A DNA stretch of 64,000 nucleotides from Sipunculus nudus (Eukaryota; Annelida; Sipuncula; Golfingiida; Sipunculidae): assembly GCA_026874595.1 (NCBI GenBank), contig CM049319.1, positions 21,607,722 through 21,671,721 of the forward strand, given 5' to 3'. This document shows positions 7,582-55,650 of the stretch, piece by piece (position 1 is the stretch's first letter; each line of letters starts with the position of its first letter). The notes under the pieces are model-generated. The model was not told where the DNA came from, ran no database searches, and worked only from the letters and a program-made list of their open reading frames with translations. A program made the translations under genes and the position numbers.

Positions 7582-8407
7582 ACAGTTAGCAAACCTTGAT
7601 TTAAGGCTCTATTTATATCCTTCCTAAATCTCCTCACCCTATCTTTGGGGATATTAATCTAAGTTTTGTTATCATTTGTAACGGTACATATTTTAGACCA
7701 AAGTAAATTAAACTCATGACTTGGAACCAGACTGGATTTTTCCCAGTTTATAAACAAGCCAAGATTCTGTAACACTGTTAGCAGTAAATCTTTGTGTGCA
7801 TCAATATTATGACTATCTACCATAAATATGAAGTCATCAACATAAGCAGCAACCCTCAAGTTGTTTTCCCTCAAATATTTCACAACAGGTTTAATACACT
7901 TTAGGAAATAAAATGGAGAAACACATAAACCAAAGGGTAAAACCTGCCATACATAGTATTTTCCCCTCCAGGAAAACCCTAAATACTGTTGGTGCTCCCT
8001 GGGTACAGGGATATGATACAAACCATTGCGTATATATCAAGTGTGATAAGTTTGTCATGAGGCTTGACAAGTGACTGTACAGTTCTAATATCCTCTTGTG
8101 TGAATGAAGGTACATCACAGCACCTGTTTACCTCTCGAAGATCTGTTATAAGTCTCAAATGGTTATTTCTCTTCGGCACCACTGAAATGGGAGACACGCA
8201 GGCAGGTTTAGAGTCAACTTGTCTTACAGCCCCTGATTGCAATAAGCATTCGAGTTCATTGTCAATAAACACAAAGTATTTAGATTCAACAACCCTATTT
8301 TGGAATTCAAAACAATGAGGTAATACCCTGAACAGAATGGCCACACTCTGTGTTACCCAGCTAATGACTTGTGAAGGTGCCCCAAACGTTTTCATAAGCT
8401 TTAGCAT
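7582..8407 (-). pseudogene. DIRS reverse transcriptase, frameshifted
   Basis: Reverse transcriptase of the DIRS-like element. The first frame (8407-7979) carries SPISVVPKRNNHLRLITDLR, and the second (8021-7659) carries HIPVPREHQQYLGFSW, VLPFGLCVSPFYF and the catalytic YVDD box (about 7830). A one-base shift separates them near 8030, and the frame changes again before RALNQGLLT, where the hAT MITE interrupts the gene. The N-terminus is missing: the ATG at 8407 directly abuts the satellite, so upstream coding sequence was replaced or pushed away. The FGL-Cys-SP and YVDD spacing fits DIRS/Ngaro RT. The RT call is certain; the start shown is only the last Met before the satellite. Confidence 0.88.
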
Positions 8408-11400
8408 TTAATGAATCTGCTGAAAACGGTATACACATGGTCCATGGGCATCAAAATTATTAATGAATCTGCTGAAAACGGTATACACATGGTCCATGGG
8501 CATCAAAATTATTAAGGAGTCTGCTGGAAACTGTATACACATAGTCCATGGGCATCAAAATTAATAATGAGTCTGCTGGAACCTGTATACCCATAGTCCA
8601 TGGCCATCAAAATTATTAAGGAGTCTGCTGGAACCTGTATACACATAGTCCATGGCCATCAAAATTATTAATGAGTCTGCTGGAACCTGTATACACATAG
8701 TCCATGGCCATCAAAATTATTAATGAGTCTGCTGGAACCTGTATACCCATAGTCCATGGCCATCAAAATTATTAATAAGTCTGCTGGAACCTGTATACAC
8801 ATAGTCCATGGGCATCAAAATTATTAACGGGTCTGCTGGAACCTGTATACACATAGTCCATGGGCATCAAAATTATTAACGAGTCTGCTGGAAACTGTAT
8901 ACACATAGTCCATGGCCATCAAAACTATTAACGAGTCTGCTGGAACCTGTATACACATAGTCCATGCCCATCAAAATTATTAATGAGTCTGCTGGAACCT
9001 GTATACACATAGTCCATGGCCATCAAAATTAATAATGAGTCTGCTGGAACCTGTATACACATAGTCCATGGCCATCAAAATTATTAATGAGTCTTCTGGA
9101 ACCTGTATACACATAGCCATGCCCATCAAAATTATAAATGAGTCTGCTGGAACCTGTATACACATAGTCCATGGCCATCAAAATTATTAATGAGTCTGCT
9201 GGAACCTGAATACACATAGTCCATGGCCATCAAAATTATTAACGAGTCTGCTGGAACCTGTATACACATAGTCCATGGCCATCAAAATTATTAACGAGTC
9301 TGCTGGAAACTGTATACACATAGTCCATGGCCATCAAAATTATTAATGAGTCTGCTGGAACCTGTATACACAGTCCATGGCCATCAAAATTATTAATGAG
9401 TCTGCTGGAACCTGTATACCCATAGTCCATGGCCATCAAAATTATTAATGAGTCTGCTGGAAACTGTATACCCATAGTCCATGGCCATCAAAATTATTAA
9501 TGAGTCTGCTGAAACCTGTATACCCATAGTCCATGGCCATCAAAATTATTAATGAGTCTGCTGGAACCTGTATACACATAGTCCATGGCCATCAAAATTA
9601 TAAAATTATTAACGAGTCTGCTGGAAACTGTATACACAGTCCATGGGCATCAAAATTATTAACCAGTCTGCTGGAAACTGTATACACATAGTCCATGGGC
9701 ATCAAATTTATTAACCAGTCTGCTGGAAACTGTATACACATAGTCCATGGGCATCAAAATTATTAATGAGTCTGCATGAAACTGTATACACATAGTCCAT
9801 GGCCATCAAAATTATTAACGAGTCTGCTGGAACCTGTATACACAGTCCATGGCCATCAAAATTATTAACGAGTCTGCTGGAACCTGTATACACATAGTCC
9901 ATGGCCATCAAAATTATTAATGAGTCTGCTGGAACCTGTATACACAGTCCATGGGCATCAAAATTATTAATGAGTCTGCTGGAACCTGTATACACATAGT
10001 CCATGGGCATCAAAATTATTAATGAGTCTGCTGGAACCTGTATACACATAGTCCATGGGCATCAAAATTATTAATGAGTCTGCTGGAAACTGTATACACA
10101 TAGTCCATGGCCATCAAAATTATTAACGAGTCTGCTGGAAACTGTATACACATAGTCCATGGCCATCAAAATTATTAACGAGTCTGCTGGAAACTGTATA
10201 CACATAGTCCATGGCCATCAAAATTATTAACGAGTCTGCTGGAAACTGTATACACATAGTCCATGGCCATCAAAATTATTAACGAGTCTGCTGGAACCTG
10301 TATACGCAGTCCATGGCCATCAAAATTATTAATGAGTCTGCTGGAACCTGTATACACATAGTCCATGGCCATCAAAATTATTAATGAGTCTGCTGGAACC
10401 TGTATACACATAGTCCATGGCCATCAAAATTATTAATGAGTCTGCTAGAACCTGTATACACATAGTCCATGGCCATCAAAATTATTAATGAGTCTGCTGG
10501 AACCTGTATACACATAGTCCATGGGCATCAAAATTATTAACGAGTCTGCTGGAAACTGTATACACATAGTCCATGGGCATCAAATTTATTAATGAGCCTG
10601 CTGGAAACTGTATATACATAGTCCATGGCCATCAAAATTATTAATGAGCCTGCTGGAACCTGTATGCACATAGTCCATGGCCATCAAAATTATTAATGAG
10701 TCTGCTGGAACCTGTATACACATAGTCCATGGGCATCAAAGTTATTAATGAGTCTGCTGGAACCTGTATACACATAGTCCATGGCCATCAAAATTATTAA
10801 TGAGTCTGCTGGAACCTGTATACCCATAGTCCATGGCCATCAAAATTATTAACGAGTCTGCTGGAAACTGTATACACATAGTCCATGGCCATCAAAATTA
10901 TTAACGAGTCTGCTGGAAACTGTATACACATAGTCCATGGCCATCAAAATTATTAACGAGTCTGCTGGAAACTGTATACACATAGTCCATGGCCATCAAA
11001 ATTATTAACGAGTCTGCTGGAAACTGTATACACATAGTCCATGGCCATCAAAATTATTAAGGAGTCTGCTGGAACCTGTATACACATAGTCCATGGCCAT
11101 CAAAATTATTAACGAGTCTGCTGGAACCTGTATACACATAGTCCATGGCCATCAAAATTATTAACGAGTCTGCTGGAACCTGTATACACATAGTCCATGG
11201 CCATCAAAATTATTAACGACTCTGCTGGAAACTGTATACACATAGTCCATGGCCATCAAAATTATTAACGAGTCTGCTGGAACCTGTATACACATAGTCC
11301 ATGGCCATCAAAATTATTATTGAGTCTGCTGGAACCTGTATACACATAGTCCATGGCCATCAAAATTATTAACGAGTCTGCTGGAAACTGTATACACATA

Positions 11401-12867
11401 GTCCATGGCCATCAAAATTATTAACGAGTCTGCTGGAAACTGTATACACATAGTCCATGGCCATCAAAATTATTAACGAGTCTGCTGGAAACAGTATACA
11501 CATAGTCCATGGCCATCAAAATTATTAACGAGTCTGCTGGAACCTGTATACGCAGTCCATGGCCATCAAAATTATTAATGAGTCTGCTGGAACCTGTATA
11601 CCCATAGTCCATGGCCATCAAAATTATTAATGAGTCTGCTGGAACCTGTATACACATAGTCCATGGCCATCAAAATTATTAATGAGTCTGCTAGAACCTG
11701 TATACACATAGTCCATGGCCATCAAAATTATTAACGAGTCTGCTGGAACCTGTATACACATAGTCCATGGCCATCAAAATTATTAACGAGTCTGCTGAAA
11801 ACTGTATACACAGTGCATGGGCATCAAAATTATTAACGAGTCTGCTGGAACCTGTATACACATAGTCCATGGGCATCAAAATTATTAACGAGTCTGCTGG
11901 AAACTGTATACACATAGTCCATGGCCATCAAATTTATTAATGAGCCTGCTGGAAACTGTATATACATAGTCCATGGCCATCAAAATTATTAACGAGTCTG
12001 CTGGAAACTGTATACACATAGTCCATGGGCATCAAAATTATTAACGAGTCTGCTGGAAACTGTATACACATAGTCCATGGGCATCAAAGTTATTAATGAG
12101 TCTGCTGGAACCTGTATACACATAGTCCATGGCCATCAAAATTATTAATGAGTCTGCTGGAACCTGTATACCCATAGTCCATGGGCATCAAAATTATTAA
12201 TGAGTCTGCTGGAACCTGTATACACATAGTCCATGGCCATCAAAAATATTAATGAGTCTGCTGGAACCTGTATACACATAGTCCATGGCCATCAAAATTA
12301 TTAATGAGTCTGCTGGAAACTTTATACACATAGTCCATGGCCATCAAAATTATTAAGGAGTCTGCTGGAACCTGTATACACATAGTCCATGGCCATCAAA
12401 ATTATTAACGAGTCTGCTGGAACCTGTATACACATAGTCCATGGCCATCAAAATTATTAACGAGTCTGCTGGAACCTGTATACACATAGTCCATGGCCAT
12501 CAAAATTATTAACGAGTCTGCTTGAAACTGTATACACATAGTCCATGGCCATCAAAATTATTAACGAGTCTGCTGGAACCTGTATACACATAGTCCATGG
12601 CCATCAAAATTATTATTGAGTCTGCTGGAACCTGTATACACATAGTCCATGGCCATCAAAATTATTAATGAGTCTGCTGGAACCTGTATACACATAGTCC
12701 ATGGCCATCAAAATTATTAATGAGTCTGCTGGAACCTGTATACACATAGTCCATGGCCATCAAAATTATTAATGAGTCTGCTGGAACCTGTATACACATA
12801 GTCCATGGCCATCAAAATTATTAATGAGTCTGCTGGAACCTGTATACACATAGTCCATGGCCATCAA
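8408..12867. repeat. 52-bp satellite, about 86 tandem copies
   Basis: The monomer is 52 bp and contains 'gagtctgctggaacctgtat', 'acacatagtccatggccatc' and 'aaaattatt'. Positions that vary between copies are aatg/aacg/aagg before 'ag', aacctg/aaactg, acac/accc, and ggcc/gggc. Some copies lost 2 bp (tatacacagtcc) and are 50 bp. The first two copies (8408-8512) are the most diverged. Shared rare variants show longer duplications inside the array, at offsets of about 1246, 1296 and 1348 bp (24-26 monomers). Each monomer holds CCATGG and ATGGCCAT palindromes. Because 52 is not a multiple of 3, reading shifts every copy and meets a stop, so the open frames here are not genes. The array lies exactly between the gag and RT parts of the DIRS-like element. 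Confidence 0.97.
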
Positions 12868-16865: not shown

Positions 16866-17790
16866 ATGCGGCTCTGTAAAGTGCGTAGTTTTCCTGTTCC
16901 AGACAAATTGGTATGTCAAAAATATGTGCTTGATATTTCCAAAATACTCCCTGTTGGGTCATCATTACAACTTCTTGATGCAATGAAGAAACTTACAAGA
17001 TATTTAACCAATCAAACTATGTACCATGGAAAAATCATTATCAGTGAACTGGCTTGAGCAGCGAATAGGACGCATCACTCCAAGTATCATGCACCGAGTG
17101 TGCACACGAGCCTCGACTCCCATGACACATCCAAGTGCAGATACAACAAAACTGTTGGAAACCATCGTGGGTCATTCATCCACATTAAGATCACCAGCTG
17201 TAAAACAGGGGAAATCTATTGAACCACATGCTAAGACTGCCTACACAAACCTGTATAGAAATCCGATCGCAAGTTCCAAAACAGTGACTCTGGTCCAGTA
17301 GTGTGTAAAGATGAACCCTATCTTGCTGTGTCACCAGATCATCTTGTATCCTGTGACTGTCATAGCAAAGGATTGTGTGAGATTAAGTGTCCATACACCA
17401 TACGTGCTGTTACTCCGACCGTTCAAATCTACTTATCTTTTTGTGTAAGTGAAGCCGAAGGTGTCATCAAACTGTCTGCAACACTTGACCACTACTTCCA
17501 CATCACTGTGCAACTTGGTGTACTCGGCCTGTCATACTGTGAGTAGTTTGTATACACGAGTAATGGGCAACACCTAGATAGGGCCTTCTTTAATTCAACA
17601 TTATGGAACAACATGCTGACACATTTACATTGCCTCTTGACTAGCTATGTGGGTCCTCATCTCTTTTCTCTAAATGACAAGTCTGCTGAAAGAACACCAA
17701 TGTCCCCACAACCCAAGTATTATATAGCTGACATGGATGTAAATAAAGTAGTGTTACACTTTAAAATGTTAATTCACAAAGTTACAGAAG
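16866..17790 (+). pseudogene. YqaJ-type (PD-(D/E)xK) nuclease gene, frameshifted
   Basis: The protein resembles large YqaJ-domain proteins, often preceded by a SWIM zinc finger, that are numerous in cnidarian and mollusc genomes. Visible order: a linker (VCQKYVLDISKILPVGSSLQ, about 16910), NWLEQRIGRITPSIMHRVCT (about 17050), KSIEPHAKTAY (about 17215), DSGPVVCKDEPYLAVSPDHL, and CDCHSKGLCEIKCPYTIR (about 17350-17410). SPD and the E-x-K of CEIKCP are the metal-binding residues of the nuclease fold and are intact. A C-terminal part (STLWNNMLTHL) follows in another frame. At least one shift at about 17268 and another after 17546 break it; no N-terminal SWIM finger is seen. It may be a host gene relic or a mobile-element passenger. 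Family call good, role unknown. Confidence 0.75.
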
Positions 17791-26442: not shown

Positions 26443-28950
26443 AATGGGCACAGTCATGCTCTTGACCGCTGTGCACCGTCTGTTACTAGAATGGTGAGAG
26501 ATAGACCTTCGGCCCCGTGGTTGTCTGATGACATCAGAGTTGCCCGCCGTAAACGGAGGCAAACGGGAAGGCGCTAGCGAAGTTCAGGTCTATCTGTCCA
26601 TCGTGAAATCTTCGTCAGAGAAAGGGCTGTAGTGAAAGCAGCCATTTATGAGGCCTTATCTACATCGATAAGATTGACTCCAGTTCGTCATCAAAACAGC
26701 TGTTTTCTGCGTCTGGTGAGCTTAGGGCAAGTCCTGGATAATATCTCTGCCAACTGATATACCTCGCTGTGACCTTCCGAAACGTTTCTGTGACTTTTTT
26801 TTTTTTTGCCAAGATTGAACGTATCCGTCAGGAACTTGGCTCTTGTGTATGTTAACCTCCTAACTTTGATGTTTATGACGGTCCCACTTTGTCCTGGTTT
26901 ACACCAGCGACTGATAAGGAGATACATGAACTCATAATATCATCACCAACAAAAAGCTGTATACTTAATCTCTTCCCAACTCCCCTTCTTGAGCAATGCA
27001 TAGATTACCTTAATCCATTGATTACATTCATTATTAATGTCTCTCTATCAACAGGTATAGTCCCTTCGCAGTTTAAAGTGGCTTTCGTGACCAACCTTTT
27101 GAAGAAGCCGGGTTTAGATCCAAATGACCTTAAACATTTTAGGCAAGTTTCAAACCTACCCTTCGTTTCTAAAATCCTTGAGAAGATTGTTTTAAAGATG
27201 TGACAATGTCATCTTTATGAAAATAGCTTAATGGAAATCAATCAGTCCGCGTGTAGAAGGCACCATAGCACAGAGACCGCCGTACTGAGTGTCATGGATG
27301 GTCTGCTGATGGCGGCAGACGAGAGACGCGTTTCTCTCCTAGCATTGATGGACCTCAGTGCAGCGTTTGACACGCTTGATCATTCCATTTTGCTTAAAAG
27401 ACTGGAACTTACCTTTGGTATACACGGCACCGCGCTTTCATGGTTTACTTCATACCTCGCTAATCGTATCCAAGCTGTTATGATCGACGATAGAAAATCA
27501 GACACATATACTTTGTTGTACGGGCTTCCCCAGGGATCCGTGTTAGGACCTATATTGTTCACTTTATATTCACAACCCCTATCTCGCATAATATTTGCAC
27601 ATGATTGTTCTTTTCATAAGTATGCTGATGACACTGAACTGTCAAAAAGTAGTAAACCAGGTGAGTTCAGCTCTGTCCAGTTCAGCATACAAGCTTGTAT
27701 TGAGGATATACTATCATGGATGACCAGCAACAAACTTAAATTGAATACTGACAAGACTGAAATTATGCCTGTCGGATCTAAACCCCTTCTAAGGATGACT
27801 GACAGTGAGTCTATTTGCATTGGGGGCTGCACTGTTCCTTTTCAAAATTCAGTGAAGTATCTAGGTGTTAAGATTGATCGTAATCTTTTGATGCATGATT
27901 ATTTTAGTAGTTTTTGTCGTGCGGCCTTTCTCGAGCTCCGCCGTATAGCTTCAATCCGGCGTTTCCACTCTATTAATGCGTGCTGTCGGCTCATTGGGGC
28001 CACAGTAATATCTCGCCTGGATTACTGTAATTCAGTTCTTGCTGGGTTACCTGCAAGTCTCGCGGCTACAGATTGTCCAGAATAATGCGGCGCGTCTCAT
28101 TCTTAAGAAGCGTATATGACCGACCACGTCACCCCGCTGCTCAAAAAGCTCCATTGGCTTCCCGTCAAGTACCGCATACAATACAAAATTGCTGTTTTTG
28201 TTTACCGCCGTTTTGATGACTCACTTCCATCATATTTGACTGAAAAAAATAATAACCTATCGGCCTTTGCGTACGCTGCGCTCGGCTAGCGGAAATCTTC
28301 TGTGTTTCCATGTATCCGCAAAAATCGTATCCACAAAAGACGTACATACGTTCCATAGTTCGCAGTTCGCAGTTCGCAGAAACTGTTTCCATAAGTGCGC
28401 ACGTTCTTCTTGCTGATACCCTTTCACGTGCCTCTTTTGAAACTGCAAGGACGACAGGCAGGAAGAAGGTCAATATGTCATCACACCTGGCGCCGGGGCA
28501 CTGTTGGGAAATGTAGGCATTTTTGCCATCCGCAAAACGGATGAATCGCTCACCGATCCGTTTCGATGCTGTCCGTTTTTGCGGATACGCATGCGGAGCA
28601 CGTTAAAACGTACATATGGAAACAGGTCATCTTAAAAGAGGGATCTGAGTACCAAAGTGTAATATGAAAATCGGTGAACGTTCCTTCGGTTTCATTGCCC
28701 TAGAAGTTTGGAATTCACTTCCAATTACACTTAGAAAATCTCCAACTTTTGTACCATTTAAAACTTATTTAAAAACGTATCTCTTTCGGCAAGCTTTCTG
28801 GTAATTAATATATGCATCATTTTTTTTTCTGGGTCAGGCACAGGGAGTAGATTTCCATAAAATTGTATGTGGGTATGTGTGTGTATGTGTGTGAATTGCG
28901 CTTTGAGTCCGGCCATCGGAGAATTGGCGCTATATAAATACTATATATTA
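26443..28950 (+). pseudogene. CR1/L2-like LINE, reverse transcriptase to 3' end, interrupted by a MITE
   Basis: Directly after the foldback element comes the linker between endonuclease and RT (LDRCAPSVTRMV, RPSAPWLSDDIRVARRKRR). RT is nearly intact in 27231-28085: ACRRHHSTETAVL, LLALMDLSAAFDTLDHSILL, LPQGSVLGPILFTLY, HKYADDTELS (catalytic ADD), KLKLNTDKTEIM and VKYLGVKID. Downstream, DHVTPLLKKLHWLPVKYRI and WNSLPITLRKSPTFVPFKTY finish the protein around 28800. The 3' tail 'gcgctttgagtc...ggcgctatataaata' (about 28900-28945) is the hairpin-type end usual for L2/CR1-like elements. Frameshifts lie upstream of 27231 and near 28080. A MITE (28297-28628) splits the C-terminal part. It is inactive. 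Confidence 0.88.
28297..28628. mobile_element. Small inverted-repeat element (MITE) inside the LINE
   Basis: The left end 'ctgtgtttccatgtatccgc' and the complement of the right end 'cctgtttccatatgta' form a terminal inverted repeat, with inner 'gcaaaaatcgtatcc' / 'ggatacgcatgcgg' type motifs. LINE coding resumes on the far side. The ends resemble those of the elements at 29620-29900 and 51689-52272. The target duplication is uncertain (perhaps 'atctt'). Confidence 0.65.
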
Positions 28951-36137: not shown

Positions 36138-39100
36138 TCAACTCCGTTACAACAGTTTATTTTTTAAAATAAACAAAATAATATGGTAAAAAAGAAGAAT
36201 AATTGTGGCGCATATGTAGATTTTACAAAAGTATGGCACACAATCATCATAAACACCAGAGTTTGATATGGAAATTATTCCTGACATTTTTATTAATGCT
36301 CTATGATAAGGTCACATTGAACACAAATATTGGACTTATAACGTACAGTGAAGAAAACTTGCTAAAAGAGACAGGTACGGTCTATATTACTGATCTCCTA
36401 CAAATTGTCCATCATTTGACAATACTTTGTAACGTTAACTGCTGTAAACTCTGAATGAAAACTTTCCAAAATAGATTTGGGCCAAAGTTTTGCGCTTACT
36501 GGAATGTAACGGAGTTGATAACGCACTAAATTATAAAATATTCTTACCTGAACTTTTAACACATTTGAATAAAAAGTAAACAGATTACTATCATGTTGTA
36601 TCATGCTAACCTGGATCGATACAAGTTACCCTCAAAGGTAAACAAAAGTTTACCACATAACGTTTATGTTAAACACATAGAGTCAGTTAATGTAAACTTA
36701 CTGCTACATTGAACAATACAGCTCGAGATCATTGCGAGAAAGAACTTGCAAAATGCCTACCTACTTAGTATTTAACAACTTCAATATAAATTAAATAAAA
36801 GCATACTTCTCCTGTAATGGCAAAACATACTTGTGAAAGTAAACAAATAGCGCAATATCTTAATTTAGGAAAATATTGTAACAATTAAGAGTTGTAACGG
36901 AGTTGATCCATTTTCAACAAAAATGATAGTCTTGATACCTTATAAAATTAAGAGCTGTGCTTTATATGCAACTGGCATTAAACGCTAGTATCATCTTATC
37001 TATGAAAATATTACCATTAATTTCACATATATTTTTAAACACTAACGCAAATATTAAAGTAAACTGATACCAATAGCTGGATTGAAATGTGGATGCTAAG
37101 TAAAAAGGGCCTGCTCGGCACTTAATAAAACTTGTACACAGTAATATATTCCAAAACTTTCTTCTAATATGACAGCAAAAGAATATGTTTTATTAAGATG
37201 CCGTATTGTCTTTGGATGGTCAAAGCAATACTAAAACGTGATTGAATAATCAACTTTTGTTACACTAAAAGCTGTCAGGTGTAGAACAGTCCATTCTACA
37301 CAACACGCATATTTGAAACTTTCTCCTTTTATGAGTATGTTATGGAGACATTATACCAAATATAAATGCCCAAAAACATGATGAGATGAATCAAACAGAA
37401 GAATAAAATAATAATATCGCAAAAGAAAATGATTCACATTTCAGCAGTTTGTAATACCAACCACTGAAGTATGGAATCGTACAGCTTAAGTAAAGTAGCT
37501 TTCAAACTTCCACTGTCAATGCTCAACAACCTCCGTGATTGTTGCACTGGTGGAGGGATGATGGCTACTAATTTATCGTATTCATACCAGAGAGTCATGT
37601 CTTCGTTGTCTGGCATAACGAACTTGTTATTTCCTACTTTACGGAGCTCCCGCACTTCAACAGATTCACTATCCTGGGAAATAACCTTGCCAACATGAGG
37701 CTTCGATTCGTATTCAACGACAAGCCATGCATTTCTGAGATCCTGGTCTTTTGACAACTGTATATTTACAGTTGCGGCTGCAGGGAAAGCGCTGGTGTTT
37801 GCTACTTCGATGTGATCTGGTTCTCCTAGCAGGATTTTCTTGTCATGGTAGCAACTGCAAGGTGTAGGCCATGAACAAAAGCAGCTGAGACTCTTGGTGA
37901 GGATCTCTTTTTCTGATTGCGTCCAGACCTGTTTAACTTTCATGATTCCAGACACAGATTTTATTTTTATAGGAACCTTCTCCTCCAAGTTCTCAATGGA
38001 CGACCCGTGAATGTAGAAAAACTTTATTGCACTTTCATGCTCACACAGTGCATGGTACAACATTTTAGGATCTGGTAGGTCTTTTCCTCTTGCGACCATA
38101 TCATCTGCTGTTCTTTTAACAGCTCCACCAATAGCATCGGCGGCCCCTTTACCGTGGCCTGCTTCAAAATAGTTCCAAGTACCACCTTTGAAATCCTGCT
38201 CATACAATATCGTTGAAAAGAGATAGAGGTTGGTACGATTTCTATACTGAGTGGTGGGCCCGTCGGAAAAGAAATGTACTAATGTGGTCCCATCGTTTCG
38301 TAACTTGGTCAGCACAAATGCCAGATGAGCCCATATGGCCACAGGATCATGGCGTCGTGAGTCAGATATTGTGCAGAGTGAAAACAGTTCTTGACTCATG
38401 TAGCAGACACCAGTATGGAGTGTAGCTTGTTTATTTGAGTCACCGAAGTGCGCGCTTTGAATTTGTGTGGCATACTTGCACTGCCAGTTCTCTGAAAAGT
38501 CAATGTGCAATACTGCCTCATCCTCACCTAGATTTTGCTTCAATTCGCGATAGAATCTGTATTGGTGCCTTATGTTGAACACGTGCGGACAAAGCGTGCC
38601 TTTGAGTTCTTCTACAAATGATGTCTTTAATTGAAGGACAGTTCCTTGTACCTTCTCTTTCACGGTTTTTTGAGCGGTCTTCTCGACGTTTTCTTTGGTG
38701 GTATAGGTTTCATGTTTAGTTTGCCATTCCCACCACCAAATTGGTGTACAGTCTGGAAGAACATCGGTGAATGTAAGGTTGTTGGGACAACTACATTCTC
38801 CATACATGTCTTTTTGTGTCACATACAACAAACTTCATATTCTCTTCGACACGTTTTGCTTGTAACAAGCGCAGTTCATGCAGCTTATCAGCTTGTAACT
38901 GCAAATTGTCATGCTTTTTGCACAAGCATGTGTCCCTGTCTGAAACTTTGGGGCGGAAAATCCAAAACGGCTTGCGCTTACAGAACTGAGAATAACTTAT
39001 TTTGGCCCTTGGATTCTCAGCTTTGAACTTAAGGTACAGATTTCTGGTCGAATCGAGAAGGTACCGCTTTGTCTTCTTTTCACCTTTCACAGTCTTAGTG

Positions 39101-40644
39101 TCTTTCACACGAGTGCTTATGCGTGTGTTGTCATCTCTTTAAAAAAAATTGATAACAGCTTCCGTTGTCTCTCCAGGTATGGCATTTGAGTTTCTCTTTC
39201 GTTCGTATTTTCCTATCACTTCTTTTCGAAGCAGATTTGAATCTATTCTCTTTCTTGATATAGCACGACACGTGCTTTTTGCAAAATTTGTCAATCGATA
39301 CTTTTTCAATATTTTACCTCCAAGTACTTTTGAAACCGTTTGCTTTTCTTTTTCTGATCCTGTGGACATGGATGTATTGATTTCGGACACAAGAGCATGG
39401 TGGAAAATTAAAGTCTTTTAATACTTGAGTTGTCATTAGAAGACAACAACCGCTGTGTGGCTCGTCTTGGTGTGTTAGGCTGTAGTTTGTCTAATGTTGC
39501 TTTTGCCCGCTCTGCTCGCTTCCTATACTTTTCGGATGTCTTTACCAAATTGTCAATTTTCACCGTCAGTTTCAGATTATCCCGATAAACTTTTGCACGA
39601 TCCTTGCGTAAACGTTTTCGTCCTCGTGTGTTATTTCCGATGGCTTCCATCTTGTTCGTTTCATCTTGGCTATCCGCTGAAGGGACAGGAGACGTCGGTG
39701 GGGTAGTTTCTAATAACTGAGTTTGGGCCTTCTTCCTTTTCCGATATTCTTCAGAAGATTTTTTCCATCTTTTGCGTATTGCTTTTTGTTTGCTCTCTGG
39801 TAGTTCAATAATCGGTTTCTTTCTTTCATGCCATCGTTTTCTATCTTTTTCTCGAACTTCTTCTAGTTTCACAGCATCTTTTCTCAAGCGTTCTCTATAT
39901 ACCCTCATTCGTTCTTTTGCAGTCTTAGCCATGGTGATTAGCCTGTAAACCCAATGAATTTCAGTTATAAGCTCATAAACAAACTCTCAAATATTTCTGA
40001 GGTATAAATTTTAATGTTTCTACGGCTGTCATTTTTTCAAGACTAGAGCATTTGTTAATTACCAAAATTTGCTTGTTTTCAAAGAGCAACAGTATTTTCC
40101 AGACCAAGATAAACGCATTAAAAGGGATAATACGCTATCATGTGGTCAAATAAATTGTTTCCTGTCTCTCCAGTGTGCTTATTTATTTGTCCTTTCATTA
40201 AGAAATAATTTATTACTGGTTGAAAATTTCATAGAAAAAATGTTTTGTGATTCGTCAACTCCGTTACAATAAAATCGTAACGGAGCTGATGGTAACGGAG
40301 CTGATGATTTTTTTAAATTTCACCTAATGGGCGGCCATATTGGACATGATAGACTACAAACAAATATATGATTTTTAATAGATTTACAATGCCTTTCTCT
40401 GTTCATGAATGTTTATAGGTTTCCGTGGTTACTTTTTAGGCAAATGGCGTAACAGAGTTGATGAGTGAATTAAGCTACTTACCTTTTTATCAACTTTTTC
40501 ACTGAAAAAAAATAAAACTGTGGGCGGAAGCCATGATTCTTCACTTTGAATGTCCTATGTTGTAACGAAGGATCTGATTGGTTACTCGATTTGTTCCACT
40601 GGATGGCTGTAGATGGCATTATTGTGCAGTTGTAACGGAGTTGA
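36138..40644 (-). mobile_element. 4.5-kb DNA transposon with repeated terminal motif
   Basis: The ends are a perfect 16-bp inverted repeat: TCAACTCCGTTACAAC (36138-36153) and GTTGTAACGGAGTTGA (40629-40644). The same core, GTAACGGAGTTGAT with at most one change, recurs in both subterminal regions: 36505-36519, 36891-36907, 40255-40269 (reverse), 40277-40290, 40292-40305 and 40449-40462, but not within the gene. A single minus-strand gene (39932-37434) fills the centre. This is how transposase-binding sites are arranged in CACTA and several other cut-and-paste families. No target duplication was found at the proposed ends, so the true boundaries may differ by some bases. Confidence 0.8.
37434..39932 (-). 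pseudogene. Transposase-like protein of an unnamed family, lightly broken
   Basis: The pieces read in order: a very basic N-terminus (MAKTAKERMRVYRERLRKDA, 39932-39408), KQTVSKVLGGKILKKYRL (39390-39139), YLLDSTRNLYLKFKAENPR and KPFWIFRP with a DRDTCLCKKH cysteine motif (39108-38791), then a 465-codon frame (38831-37434). The last has FNIRHQYRFYREL, LHIDFSENWQCKYATQIQSA, HFSDGPTTQYRNR-like FFSDGPTTQYRNRT, WNYFEAGHGKGAADAIGGAV and CFCSWPTPCSC. The Asp in HIDFSE, the Asp in SDGPTTQ and an acidic residue in FEAGHGKGAAD are candidate catalytic residues of an RNase H-fold nuclease. Similar uncharacterised proteins are common in cnidarian, mollusc and fish genomes. Breaks: one-base shifts near 39405 and 38810 and a TAA at a T-run near 39140. 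Function as transposase is inferred from context. Confidence 0.7.
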
Positions 40645-48884: not shown

Positions 48885-50540
48885 AAGTAGTCCGCTGGCT
48901 CACACAGGTTTTCCGCTGGCTCACACAAATGGTACACTGCTTAAGACACAGGTCACTGGACCACACAAAAGTGGTCCTCTGGCTCACACAGGTGGTACAC
49001 TGGTTCATACTGGTCCCTGGCTCACACACAAGTGGTCCACTGGCTTACACAGGTGCTACACAGGTACAAGTGGTCCTGTGGCTAACACAGGGGGTCCACT
49101 GGCTCACCCACAGGTGGTCCATTAGCTCACATAGGTGGTCCACAGGCTCACCCACAGGTGGTCCATAGGCTCACACAGGTGGTCCACTAATTAACCGTCA
49201 GCTGGACCACTGTCTCAACAACAGATGGTACACTGGCTCCAACACAGGTGGTCCACTCGCTTACACAGGTGGTTCACTGGCTCACACAAGTGGCTAAACC
49301 ACAGGTGACCCACTGGCCAACATGGTGACAGACACATGATCCCCGACTGGTAGTCCATTGGCTTACCAACAAGTTTTCAACTAGTTCGCCCAAGGGGATC
49401 TACTGGCTCAAACAGGTGGTCCAATGCCTCACCAATAGGTGGTCCAAAGGCTTACCCACAGGTGTTCCAATGAAAGTTTATTATATGTTAAATCCAACAA
49501 GCAGATAGTCCTCTGGCTCACACACAGGTTGTCTCATGGTGACATACACATGATCCCCGACAGGTGGTCTACTGGCTCACACACAGGTGGTCCACTTGCT
49601 CACCCACAGGTCGTCCACTGCTTCACACACAGGTGGTCCACTGAAAGTTTATTTAACATGTAATATCAGGTTATGAATGCAGTTTCACTAATATTAGTTC
49701 AACAAAAAGGGGGTTCATTAGCTCACACACAGGTTGTACCATTGTGCGATACAAAAAAAAACCCGACAGGGGGCACTGGCTCCCTCACAGGTGGTTCAAT
49801 GGCTCACACACAGGTGGTCAGCTGGCGCACACACAGGTAGTCCACTGGCTCATCCTCAGTTGGTCCACTAAACTTTTATATTTTATTTAGTAAAAAAAAA
49901 CAGGTGGTTCAATGGCTCCTGGACAAGTTGTTCCATGGTGACATACACATGATCCCTGATTAGGGGTCCACTGGCTCACCCACAAATAGTCCACCGGCTC
50001 ATCCATAGGTGGTCCACTGGCTAACCAACTAGTGCCTACTGGCTCACCCACAGGTGATTCACTGCCTCACCTACAGGTGGTCTACTGTCCCACCCACAGG
50101 TGGTTCACTGCCTCTCCCACAGGTGGTCAACTGGCTCACCCGCAGGTGGTTCACTGCCTCACCTACAGGTGGCCTACTGTCTCACCCACAGGTGGTTCAC
50201 TGCCTCACCTACAGGTGGTCAACTGGCTCACCCACAGGTGATTCACTGCCTCACCTACAGGTGGTCTACTGTCTCACCCACAGGTGGTTCACTGCCTCAC
50301 CTACAGGTGGTCTACTGTCTCACCCACAGGTGGTTCACTGTCTCACCTACAGGTGGTCTACTGTCTCACCCACAGGTGGTTCACTGCCTCACCTACAGGT
50401 GGACCACTGGCTCACCCACACGTTATTTATTGGCTCACCAATAGGTTTTTCACTTGCTCACCCATAAGTCGTCCACTGGCGCAGACACAGGAGGTCACCT
50501 AGCTCAGACACAGGTGGTCCACTGGCCCACATGCTAAGTA
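48885..50540. repeat. 23-bp minisatellite, about 60-70 units
   Basis: The unit is close to 'caggtggtccactggctcac' plus 'cca'. In the left part units vary in length and are interrupted by unrelated stretches (for example 49470-49500, 49655-49700). From about 50035 to 50410 units are regular and alternate between 'ctactgtctcaccca' and 'ttcactgcctcaccta' endings, giving a 46-bp higher-order period. Frames of up to 137 codons here (periodic HCLTYRW, SPTGG) result from the repeat and are not genes. Confidence 0.93.
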
Positions 50541-51121
50541 CATATTTGGTCTTTGGTTTACATAAAAGGCGTCTCGCATGAAGCTGTCATTGTTTTATAA
50601 AAGAGAACAAAGAGGGTTTAAATACCTGAACGTGAGTTCAACGGAACTAGGTATCACGGCATATTCATCATCATGTTTACAAAATCATAATATTGCTCAT
50701 ATATAGACTGAGTTTGTTTATAATATCCATGTGTGTTCCAGGCCTATAGGCCCATGCTTTATTTATAAAGATCCAGAATTGGCAGAAAACTATATCATAC
50801 CATGTCGACTTGAAGCTAATATGTAGTTCACAGCGCCACCACCAGATGACGCTAACGTACGTTAAAAGGGTATGAAAATATCGATTCCCTTTTTTTCCAA
50901 CGAATGATCAGACCTGGTTCCCAAATGAAATAAACCACAGACACATTGGTTTTCGTGTTTATTTCCCAGTCGATGTCCAACTGTGATTTACTGTACATAT
51001 TGCAGTAGCTGAGCCCACCTCCTGTGAGATGAATATATATATATGTGTACTTATTTTACAGACACTCACAAACACAAAAGAGGTTGCACACTTGGTTCAG
51101 GGTTTTTTTTTTTTAGGATTA
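50541..51121. other. Unassigned DNA
   Basis: Holds one short phrase ('ggcctataggcccatg', 50739) resembling the 'ggccataaggcccatg' at 46940, possibly a shared repeat edge, and a TA tract at 51030-51045. No gene seen. Confidence 0.4.
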
Positions 51122-51129
51122 CCAGGAAA

Positions 51130-51533
51130 TAGGGCTGAAAGTTCTCGAGTACTCGAGTCCGGGTAATACTTACCGAGTACTCGAGTCCAAAATGTGGACT
51201 CGAGTACTCTTGTATCTTGTATGTACATGCATATATGTATATTAGTGCAAATTTTAGGACAGTCTGTGGGATTATTTATCTATTGTTGTAGCCTGGCGTA
51301 GGGCTCTAAACATATGCTTGTCAAATTACCAGAGGTCTTGTTATGACATATATCTATTCCTTCGTTGCGATAAAGTTAAGCCGTCACTAAGTCAAATTTA
51401 TGCATATTTTCAATTAGTAAACAGATGTTCGTTTTATCTTCACAGCGTTGCCATGGTAACGAGTACTCGAGTCCGAGTCGGGTAATGCCTATCGGGTACT
51501 CGAGTCCAAAATTTTGTACCCGTTTCAGCCCTA
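51130..51533. mobile_element. hAT-type MITE with perfect 8-bp target duplication
   Basis: TIR TAGGGCTGAAA at 51130 and its complement ending at 51533. The flanking 8 bp are identical: ccaggaaa at 51122-51129 and 51534-51541. Subterminal regions carry repeated GAGTACTCGAGTCC-type palindromes on both sides. No coding capacity. The perfect duplication suggests a fairly young insertion. Confidence 0.93.
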
Positions 51534-51688
51534 CCAGGAAAGAATAAAAACAAACAACATGTGCTGCTAGATTTTATTTATTAACAAAGAAAGTTCGTGA
51601 CGTCACACTTGCACCATCAAAACACTTCAAGGACCAGTTTCTGTCCTTGGCTCCATCCTCCCGTCACAAGATGCTGGCACCTGTAACA

Positions 51689-52272
51689 TAAGGGTGGTTT
51701 TTCCATAAGTGCGTAGTCCGTATGCGTAGTCCGTACTCCGTATTGATAGGTGCTCGATAGCTGAACTTTTTCATTTTTGCAAGCCATTTCACTATAATTA
51801 TTGCACATTTGCCAATATTAGCATCAAAAATTAAACAATAAAATTAAAATAATAAAAATTTTAAAAGATCATAATTAGTAATATTTTATGCGCGACAGTG
51901 ATGTTTACGCTTCGATCATCTAAAACATTTTGTCTGTGATAAGAAAGGAAAACAAAATTCAGCCAAATGCCAATATGATTGGTTTCTGGAAAACTGATGT
52001 CAGAAATGACATTCATACCAGTTGAAAATAGATACTGGCATACAGCTTGGCCTGAATGGGTAAACTCTTTGCTAAACCTGAAATCGAACGATGATTGGTA
52101 TGCGCAAAAATCTCTCCCAGCAGCGTGCGGATACGGACTATGCATACGTACTACGCATGCGGATGAATGGAAACGGCCCAGTTAAAAAGTCTACAAAGCG
52201 ATTTTTGCGGACTACGCATACGGACTACGGATACGGACTACGCACTTAAATCATGGAAAACCACCTTTATGG
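51689..52272. mobile_element. MITE with long 'gtagtccgtatgcg' inverted ends
   Basis: The left end 'agggtggtttttccataagt' followed by 'gcgtagtccgtatgcgtag' is matched by the complement of the right end 'aggtggttttccatgattta' with 'agtgcgtagtccgtatccg'. The TIR is about 45 bp with a small gap. It cuts the RAG1-like fragment off on its left. It shares 'tttccat' ends and 'ggatacg/gcgtacg' repeats with the elements at 28297 and 29620. Target duplication perhaps TA. Confidence 0.8.
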
Positions 52273-52279
52273 AAATGCA

Positions 52280-52924
52280 CCTTAATGAGCTTTAAAAAAA
52301 AATGGCAAGATTAATGTCAGCATGTGTACTGTCAAGCATTTTCTCACAGGGATCACCACTTAGAATTGGGACATTTTTTATTCCAACAGCAATTTTGTTC
52401 AGAGCTTTCGCACTCAATTTTTCAGGGTTCATTTTTACATATATAGTTAGCAATGTAATTTGTGTCTTTTTGACTCCGCTCTATATAGTGAGTACCTTTC
52501 TTTTCCTTAGCATCTTCTGTTGTTGCATAACAAAGGGTACACAGATGTTTGCTTCCTGCACCTTGGAGCCCACTCCCAACCCTTTCATACTTCTCATCCT
52601 GCATTGGAGGAAAAAATGTCACCTTATGATACCTGTAAACATTCTCAATCTTAAGAAATTTGTCTTTCAGGGCTTGTTTTTCATTCTCAATTGATACTAA
52701 ATTTACAGTAAATGTTGACTTACAGCTTTCATCAGCAATGCTGACTAAAAGTGGTCGATTAGTTCTTACAGAATTTGGATTCTCTTCAGTAAACAAAACA
52801 ACATCACCAGAAGGTGTAGCTGTTGTACACTGCAAGATCCAAAAGGAGAACCTCAGAACATTATCAGGCATGACTCGGTCTCCTTTTTTCTTTGAACCGA
52901 GGAACATTACCCACTCCATCCCCC
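52280..52924 (-). pseudogene. RAG1L: RAG1-like (RAG1L) transposase core fragment
   Basis: The minus strand from 52924 reads GDRVMPDNVLRFSFWILQ, then EENPNSVRTNRPLLVSIADE, then MQDEKYERVGSGLQGAGSKH directly followed by LCTLCYATTEDAK. These match in order the RAG1 core: the xRFSF strand, the xPNS/KPL segment, the ADES box with the second catalytic Asp, the DEK segment, and the CxxC zinc-binding pair followed by AT. A single-base shift near 52430 leads to NPEKLSAKALNKI and DSTHADINLAIFF, which continue the same alignment. The start is a likely acceptor (ttttctcaacag|G at 52925), so this looks like an internal exon. The first catalytic Asp, the catalytic Glu and the RING part are absent. The left side is cut by a MITE. 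RAG-like transposons are known from deuterostomes and some protostomes; here it is a fossil. Confidence 0.88.
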
Positions 52925-52949
52925 TGTTGAGAAAACTTTGTTGTTTCAT

Positions 52950-53316: not shown

Positions 53317-55650
53317 CAGGGTTGGGGTCAAGTACTCTGAAATGTACTTGAGTACAAGTACAAGTACTTTGCTTTTACCTGTGTACAAGTACAAGTACGA
53401 GTACTTAAATTTTGAATGTACTCAAGTACAAGTACAAGTACATTAAAATGTACTCGAGTACAAGTACAAGTACAGTTTTCATTCTTAAAGGCAATATTGA
53501 CAAACTATAAAATATAAAAAGTCTCTTTTGCCCACGTTGTAAAGGTGCAGATGTCATTTAAAAAACTAAAACTGGTTTTAAGACATGAAATTAACATGTG
53601 AAATATGTGGGATACACAGTTCATGGAGAAAAACTGTCACTGTCAGGCTTAGATCCCATTACTACGAATGAACATCAACTGTCACTCAACTGGCACCGTT
53701 CTTGCCGAAAATCTTTCCCCCAATGCAGTCTCTCCACTGGTGCAGAAGATGCAGGTACACAGAGAAACCTACAGGCGAGCTGAGCCAGACGTGTTAGATT
53801 ACCCTGCTGTCCCTTCCAGTACTGGAGAGGGTCACTGTGTCTATCTGTACAAGGCTGGGAGAGGTATTCTGTAGCCTCTCTGACTGCAGGAGACTTTGCA
53901 GGGGAGAGAGTGGATGCAGCTTCACCCATAAAATCAAACAGGTCATCAGATGGTTCCAAACGACGACGCTTTGCTGCTGGAGAAGTGACATCCTCAGCAG
54001 TCTCAGTGGACTGCATGCTGATGGAGTTGGCATGGGTAATTAACTTCTCTTTGATGGCAGTAGCTCCTTGTCACCATTTGTCCATTTAAGCTTAAATCTG
54101 GGATCAAGCACTGCAGCCAGAATATATTGTTCAGTCTCCTCAAATGGGGAGAGTCTCTTCTCTACAGAATCTTGTAGGGCTAGAACCAGTTTGCTATTGA
54201 ATTTTGAGGAAATCTTATTAATTTTGTGTTTCAGTCCACGTACACAGGGCACAACAAAGCTTGATGAAACTGTTTTCCTGCTGCACACAGATTGTTGCAT
54301 CTTCGAATGGCTTAAGGACCTCACACAGGTCTCTGAGACAGTTCCGCTCATAGTGTGTCAGGTGTACTGTATCTAACGAGTCCAGTTTGTCAGAGGGAAC
54401 ACTTAGGATCGACCTTATCATTTGTAACTGGCTGTTCCATCGCGTTGCATTAGCAGCTTGGAACCTCTTCTCTCCCTCAAGGATATCTGTGGCATGGGTT
54501 GATCTCCTGGCAAAGGACACAATTTTGGCTGCCTTTGCAATTACTTTGCTTAGCTGAGCTCCAGTTTGTTTCAGTCCGTCATGAACAGTCAGCTGCACAG
54601 TGTGGGCAAAACACGAGATCCGTTGTGTAGGGAGGTGTTCATACACATTAGCATCCATGTCCTGCACAGTGTCCTCACTATCACTATCACTGCCTGTGTC
54701 CTCATTACTGCAACCATCACTCTCCTGACCAGAGGTGTCAATACATCCGAATCCTGGTAGCCTCACAAATGCCTTGATCATATTACTGGCATTGTCAGTA
54801 ACAACGGTCAGAATCTTTGAGGATATTTCAAAGGTGCTGACTGTCTCATGATATTGTTCATAGATGGATACAGCAGTGTGCTTCCCTTTGAATCTCTTAC
54901 AGGCAAGCATAACTGACTGCATTGTCCAGTTCATTATGAAATGCCCAGTAATGCCCATAAAGGACTTCATTTGGCGATTACTCCACAAGTCGATGGTCAG
55001 GCACACAGCATGGGCTTGTTTGAGTTTTGACTTGACCTCAGAGTCAATGGACGAACCCTTATCCAGTAACAGTTTGGAGGTTAGATGTTTCCTGCTGGGA
55101 ACAGTGTATCGAGGGTCAGTCCTGGCCATCAGCTCATGGAACCTTGGGCTATCCACCAGTGAGAGTGGCAACAGGTCACCAGCAATTATCATTACTACAG
55201 CATCTGTGATGTGTTGTTGACGAGTATCTTGATGACGATACTTGGTGGCAGGCTGAACGAAGCTACTGATGGTCGGCTGTGCAGAACTCTCAGCATTGAC
55301 AGGTTTCTTTGGCATGATATCAGCATGGACCGCTGGATGACGTCTCTGTAAATATATGCAAGAAAAATATTAAGTTTCATGAGCATCAAAGTATTATTTA
55401 AACCCAGTAGAAATACCTCTGAGACCCTATACCAGAACAGTTAGAATTTGGAACCTACTCTATGCACATGTATAATTATTAAATTCTGACTCCCTCCATT
55501 TATCATAAACTGGCTGGTTTGGAGCACTTATTGGGTAAACAGTATGCTCTTTATGATATGTTAAACTGCTCTAAACAGTATGTTATCTATATATGTGTAA
55601 ACCCTCTAGGCTGACAATGGACTCCCTCTGTATAATTCTATAGCCTCTAT
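53317..55650 (-). mobile_element. hAT transposon inserted in foldback copy B
   Basis: The 3' end is CAGGGTTGGGGTC at 53317, followed by subterminal repeats of 'gtacaagtacaagtac' to about 53476. The transposase runs toward it on the minus strand. At the other end no matching inverted repeat is found; sequence returns to the foldback arm near 55650 with 'ctaataat' against 'gtaataat' on the left, a possible 8-bp target duplication with one change. The 5' end is therefore probably deleted. Confidence 0.75.
53649..55345 (-). pseudogene. hAT transposase (ZBED-like), frameshifted, BED finger missing
   Basis: An exon begins after an acceptor (atttacag|AGACG at 55346) with RRHPAVHA, the tail of a BED zinc finger whose first half should be on a missing upstream exon. 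Then QPTISSFVQPATKYRHQDTR, DPRYTVPSRKHLTSKLLLDK, LTIDLWSNRQMKSFMGITGH (first catalytic Asp of the hAT RNase H fold), VVTDNASNMIKAFV (second Asp), ISCFAHTVQLTVHDGL, ANATRWNSQLQMI, AAVLDPRFKLKW and the dimerisation end DPLQYWKG, SSAPVERLHW, FRQERCQLSDS. An acidic Ser/Asp/Glu loop lies mid-protein. Frameshifts near 54255 and 54045 and a small deletion near 53675 before LMFIRSNGI and the stop at 53649 disable it. About 560 codons, near normal length for the family minus the BED exon. Confidence 0.92.

Follow-up and report, generated by a model that had tools for sequence, protein, structure and literature searches.

A 64,000-base stretch of the Sipunculus nudus genome (hereafter the window, C14:21,607,722-21,671,721) carries at 52,271-52,923 of its minus strand some 217 codons from the core of a RAG1-like (RAG1L) transposase, and we have very little doubt that this is a dead copy of a RAG1L transposase gene, cut at both ends and most likely derived from a RAGL transposon. 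In vertebrates the rearrangement of antibody genes is carried out by RAG1, and vertebrate adaptive immunity was enabled by RAG1 and RAG2 after the taming of a RAGL transposon. Taken alone, the window copy is one more fossil, and the wider genome result weighs more, the 26 RAG1L places and two complete, little-diverged families found in one genome being concrete invertebrate loci for testing present-day RAG transposition, the element ends and the RAG2L partner.

The window copy and its sister

The fragment was delimited by tblastn, with P0017, a full-length RAG1L protein of 956 aa, as the main query, and its pieces lie in three frames that are collinear on the minus strand. The first-pass annotation of this DNA had described RAG1 core motifs in a definite order on the minus strand between 52,280 and 52,924; the motifs and their order were recovered by tblastn, Pfam and PDB searches, and the interval proved right to within about 10 bases. 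The features of the locus are the following:

52885-52923, minus strand: brief stretch of RAG1L in frame -2, GDGVGNVPRFKEK, that includes the position of the first catalytic Asp (tblastn)
52440-52892, minus strand: main RAG1L piece in frame -3, P0017 residues 532-685 (tblastn, PDB, Pfam)
52271-52441, minus strand: RAG1L piece in frame -1, P0017 residues 684-741, with TAA at 52292-52294 (tblastn)
52924, no strand: end of the similarity to the sister copy, at a run of C (comparison of the window with L023)
51706-52248, no strand: inverted-repeat element with 30-base arms at 51706-51735 and 52219-52248, 97% complementary
51130-51531, no strand: 402-base insertion with a 10-base direct repeat, TACCAGGAAA, at 51120-51129 and 51532-51541

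The pieces in frames -3 and -1 are jointly matched by P0017 at E 1e-47, the runner-up match elsewhere in the window has E 0.67, and the reversed window, taken as a control, gave a best E of 4.6 with the same query; a control of 20 shuffles was set aside, as large blocks had been moved in which the fragment pieces survived (best E 2e-18). The frame -2 piece (52,923-52,885) is collinear with the others and identical to P0017 at 8 of 13 positions (residues 522-534), a match that is not significant by itself (E 34). The main piece covers the RNase H part with the RFSF, NPNS, DEK and CTLC motifs, the last of these holding zinc ligands.

The window copy is dead: its frame shifts at least twice, near 52,890 and 52,440, and meets a TAA stop at 52,292-52,294, so that the single frameshift of the first-pass annotation falls short of the actual damage. 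Its reading frame is not intact, it is truncated at both ends, and no protein should now be made from it. On the 3′ side it is adjoined by the inverted-repeat element, whose true ends lie somewhat further out and whose pattern gave 0 matches against viral contigs, and on the 5′ side the RAG1L homology ends at 52,923.

A sister of the window copy (L023), read over 3.7 kb, is found on the same chromosome at a distance of about 100 kb. BLAST identity between the two is 88.9% over 52,128-52,924, 82.5% over 51,532-52,229 and 81.3% over 50,667-51,129, and in both the 3′ part is cut off, the inverted-repeat element is present and the first motif falls outside the main frame. The sister has neither the second frameshift nor the TAA nor the 402-base insertion at 51,130-51,531, and it is broken too, further upstream.

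This sister copy bears directly on whether the fragment could be an exon of a RAG1L host gene, living or domesticated, with several exons. The homology stops at an AG (52,924-52,925, minus strand) that directly precedes it and follows a pyrimidine-rich stretch, and multi-exon RAG1L genes are described in sea urchins (PMC9885083). The intron-like acceptor claimed earlier is no exon border, however, as RAG1L in the sister (residues 347-520) extends upstream past the point matching window 52,924 without an intron, and therefore the supposed splice acceptor is the place where the two copies part. An intron border at 52,924 is ruled out by this reading across. Furthermore, the frame is broken by the first catalytic Asp motif, by one frameshift and by the stop, and at E<=0.5 three RAG1L queries found nothing more of RAG1L in the window. 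The K2P distance between the window copy and its sister amounts to 0.052 over 641 sites of the gene, as against 0.057 over 437 sites and 0.063 over 149 sites of two flanks; gene and flanks are equally diverged, and therefore no selection is seen and the pair appears neutral. We regard a host exon as very improbable.

The same slight probability is given to the idea that the lesions are errors of assembly or sequencing and that the piece is less broken than it appears. Since the first frameshift and the TAA are located within or next to homopolymer runs, a sequencing error could mimic either of them, but the sister copy likewise has its first motif out of frame, the second frameshift corresponds to 4 bases by which the two copies differ in a short TA repeat, and both ends are truncated whatever the reads may say.

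Relationship to RAG1, RAG1L and Transib

The Pfam family RAG1 (PF12940) matches the fragment at E 4.3e-18 with 65.2 bits, well above the cut-off of 25. Among solved structures, the best match of the main piece is amphioxus RAG1L (6b40, residues 243-391, E 2.2e-33), followed by vertebrate RAG1 structures at E 2.9e-17 to 1.7e-14, and the frame -1 piece alone continues 6b40 at residues 388-436 (E 1.1e-4). The distinct PDB sequences found with the fragment at E<=1 number 16, and every one is RAG1 or RAG1L. A profile built from the fragment, RAG1L and RAG1 listed the same 16 sequences at E<=10, its high RAG1 scores following by construction from the RAG1 sequences that it contains. The window fragment is RAG1L by sequence comparison and, as judged by database ranking, appears nearer to RAG1 and RAG1L than to Transib.

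Alignment with a RAG1 chain of 1,040 residues (9jpu) places D600 in DGMGD, D708 in YDEK and E962 in NESGNK (alignment numbering), which we take to be the active-site residues. Their counterparts in the window are, for D600, the D of GDGVGN, which does not lie in the main frame, and, for D708, the D of QDEK. Because of this alignment, GDGVGN and QDEK are the two catalytic Asp positions and ADES is not, although ADES had been named as the second catalytic Asp before; that residue sits in DEK. The catalytic triad of the fragment is incomplete: the two Asp positions are kept, one of them out of frame, and the Glu part lies beyond the truncation.

The least probable of the alternatives, a relic of a Transib transposon instead of a RAGL element, could appeal to the common ancestor of Transib and RAG1 and to the lack of a RAG2L that Transib has in common with the window copy, but we give it hardly any weight: the PDB ranking, with RAG1 and RAG1L only, rules out a Transib identity, no Transib was matched among PDB sequences at E<=1 or by the profile at E<=10 though 6pqn is present in the searched structure library, and the fragment is 47% identical to P0017, a protein with a RING, the RAG1 core and a C-terminal zinc tail. 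Full-length P0017 does match Transib 6pqn (E 1.5e-4), through residues 829-928, which are outside the region of the fragment.

Complete RAGL elements in the same genome

It had been supposed that this lineage once carried a RAG-like transposon and that better copies may exist elsewhere, and a genome search with P0017, extended to RAG1L/RAG2L pairs and their ends, found both: two families of complete RAG1L-RAG2L elements, alpha and beta, with CAC ends and 5-bp duplications. Given these complete transposons, the lineage still carries such elements.

Ends of the alpha family were read in three copies (C10, C7 and C3), further alpha copies being two on C13, one on C3 at 75.2 Mb and one on C5. The 5′ edge is sharp, common to the three copies and begins CACATACAGATGTG. 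The 3′ end, in reverse complement CACTTACAAATGTTTGC, was located on C3 by seeking GTG followed by the flanking five bases of that copy, and the same end was then seen on C7 and C10. All three have CAC ends and target duplications, ACACA (C10), GGATG (C7) and GGGTT (C3), two of the three being independent since the C3 duplication served to find its end. Computed from their coordinates, the elements are 12,220 (C10), 12,699 (C7) and 11,053 (C3) bases long. Compared with the published protostome consensus, the 3′ end agrees at 16 of 17 positions, no more than a hint that the host is a protostome, and the 5′ end at 11 of 17.

In each of these three alpha copies RAG1L and RAG2L are convergent, and RAG2L has kelch and PHD matches, Kelch_3 lying over its Pfam cut-off (25.4 vs 22) and RAG2 (20.3 vs 21) and PHD (21.3 vs 24) just under theirs. 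The best copy examined is that on C10. Its RAG1L is a single frame open over 958 codons, in which all three catalytic positions and those for zinc are matched, and the best solved match is amphioxus ProtoRAG 6b40 (9e-151). Its RAG2L is a convergent open frame of 470 codons (E 7.9e-20 to amphioxus RAG2L), the first codons of which may lie elsewhere because there is no Met near the frame start. RAG1L has an internal TAA on C7 and is frameshifted on C3. The K2P distance in the alpha 5′ half is 0.0156 between C10 and C7 and 0.0125 between C10 and C3, and identity between C10 and C7 is 99.1% in the 3′ part.

At C13:53578848-53583487 (L007, L013, L024) a pair of alpha RAG1L copies point in opposite directions, with a few hundred bases between them. 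Tandem repeats of about 150 bases lie downstream of alpha RAG1L (L001 1-900; parts of L002, L008, L013 and L024) and give rise to many overlapping matches.

Copies of the beta family on C11, C17 and C14 (33.1 Mb) are 95-98% identical, and their ends begin CACGTT. Ends with duplications were found on C11 and C17, the two copies read at the 3′ end, as TATAC/TATAC on C17 and TCCCC/CCCCC (4 of 5) on C11. The two ends fit the protostome consensus at 9 and 12 of 17 positions. C17 has a RAG2L frame of 474 codons and a RAG1L with stops; on C11, RAG1L has an 838-codon frame (query residues 177-955) with its N-terminal part in another frame, and RAG2L is split over two frames. No beta copy among those examined has both genes whole.

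The little divergence within alpha and beta, together with the clean duplications, suggests rather recent movement, and present-day mobility of RAGL elements in this genome is likewise suggested by the sequences. We hold it possible, though we lean against it, that the genome is a living RAG transposon collection, with several RAG1L lineages (the dead one of the window included), at least two complete families, matching ends, clean duplications and open RAG1L and RAG2L frames in the best copy, in which transposition may continue.

RAG1L copies across the genome and beyond

The assembly comprises 1.43 Gb in 153 contigs (C1, 110.9 Mb; C17, 61.1 Mb; C18-C20, each below 0.1 Mb), and the chromosome number is probably 17, as judged from part of the sizes. 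A mollusc had been thought the probable host in the first-pass annotation; the molluscan haemocyanin domain PF14830 gave no match here, nor did it in any of 14 control genomes. P0017 matches at least 65 stretches at E<=0.001, a lower bound from 48 scored out of 89 candidates, and grouping by position and strand yields 26 RAG1L places, window included. A comparison of residues 519-745 covered 20 of these places and gave six groups (alpha with C3b; beta; C2/C7b; C3c/C7c; C12/C14c; window/C14a) plus a lone C9 copy. The window copy and its sister pair with 100% support as a separate lineage, and several of the deep nodes among the groups are weak (40-65% support). The window fragment is 45-49% identical to 16 of the 18 other copies, 39% to a short C5 copy and 32% to a decayed C9 copy. 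The window copy belongs to a separate, old RAG1L lineage, and the complete elements belong to other RAGL families.

Outside this genome, a protein profile search retained 16 of 1,709 candidates at E<=0.001, several of which look like vertebrate RAG1; the fragment alone as protein query found none among 22 candidates, and a protein search over wider lengths found one in 241, the 956-residue P0017 itself. Among the 16 is P0004, a V(D)J recombination-activating protein 1-like of Mercenaria mercenaria, a genus which presumably lies outside Pteriomorphia. In section 5 of PMC7204232, molluscan RAG1L-RAG2L pairs are named only in Pteriomorphia. In viral contigs 111 stretches matched a search pattern, and none was confirmed as a relative. 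At the position aligned with R848, selection of which is given as a step in RAG1 evolution in PMC9435367, the C10 copy has Leu, and the RAG1L loci listed (including L001, L004, L005 and L006) have Met or Leu, never Arg.

Origin of the window copy

Within the minus strand at 47.0-57.0 kb, the only RAG1L piece found by Pfam is the known one. No RAG2L was found by Pfam near the fragment (plus strand, 42.3-52.3 kb) or by tblastn in the whole window with two RAG2L frames as queries. The published RAGL end pattern occurs in the window 7 times against 6.4 expected, which is chance level, and no alpha or beta end was found there with 3 or fewer mismatches in 16. Since the window has neither a RAG2L nor a RAGL end, it is kinship alone that points to a paired RAGL transposon as the source.

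The source element would have been cut at its 5′-CAC ends by the DDE transposase RAG1L together with its RAG2-like kelch partner, and re-inserted with a 5-bp target duplication. This mechanism is read from the complete elements of the same genome and not from the window copy; according to PMC7204232, it is established for ProtoRAG. The fragment with its lesions, the sister copy and the complete elements are observed directly, and from them we infer the following order: the first frameshift would have come early, and the 3′ part would have been lost where the inverted-repeat element now stands; the locus would then have been duplicated to two places about 100 kb apart on one chromosome; and the window copy would have decayed further.

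Other features of the window

Remains of a hAT transposase (Dimer_Tnp_hAT, E 1.7e-8) lie just upstream of the RAG1L fragment at 53678-55369 on the minus strand. Retroelement remains are seen as RVT_1 frames at 7662-8036 (minus, E 9.8e-15) and 27204-28082 (plus, E 1.2e-24), and two frames at 17008-17543 (plus) have weak YqaJ-like recombinase matches, scoring 22.4 and 19.8 bits where the cut-off is 22. Three adjacent long frames of 466, 115 and 192 aa at 37437-39986 (minus) are possibly an unnamed transposon, the 466- and 115-aa frames having no Pfam match at E<=0.1. A satellite array of about 86 copies of a 52-base unit (95% matches) occupies 8408-12867, and a tandem array of about 12 copies of a 46-base unit occupies 49965-50524. 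tRNA and Rfam scans of the window found nothing.

Comparison with known systems

The kind of element is already known, because PMC7204232 reports RAGL transposons in protostomes and PMC9435367 lists, as of 2022, 786 RAG1L homologues from 173 species. Transib (6pqn) is likewise a DDE enzyme with CAC ends and 5-bp duplications (PMC7204232), but it has no RAG2L and does not match the fragment at E<=10. Vertebrate RAG1 has the same core, with 35% identity to the fragment over the aligned part, and as far as looked there is no link to antigen-receptor genes. Amphioxus ProtoRAG (6b40) provides the best solved match of the fragment and of both RAG1L and RAG2L of the C10 copy. It differs in that its RAG2L is described in PMC7204232 as lacking the PHD, which is present in RAG2L of this genome, and in that the window copy is a dead fragment. 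The closest likeness of alpha and beta is to the protostome RAGL elements of oysters, pearl oyster and the nemertean Notospermus, from which the window copy differs in having neither ends nor RAG2L. These protostome elements (PMC7204232) agree with alpha and beta in the convergent RAG1L and RAG2L, the kelch and PHD of RAG2L, the C-terminal zinc tail of RAG1L, the CAC ends and the 5-bp duplications.
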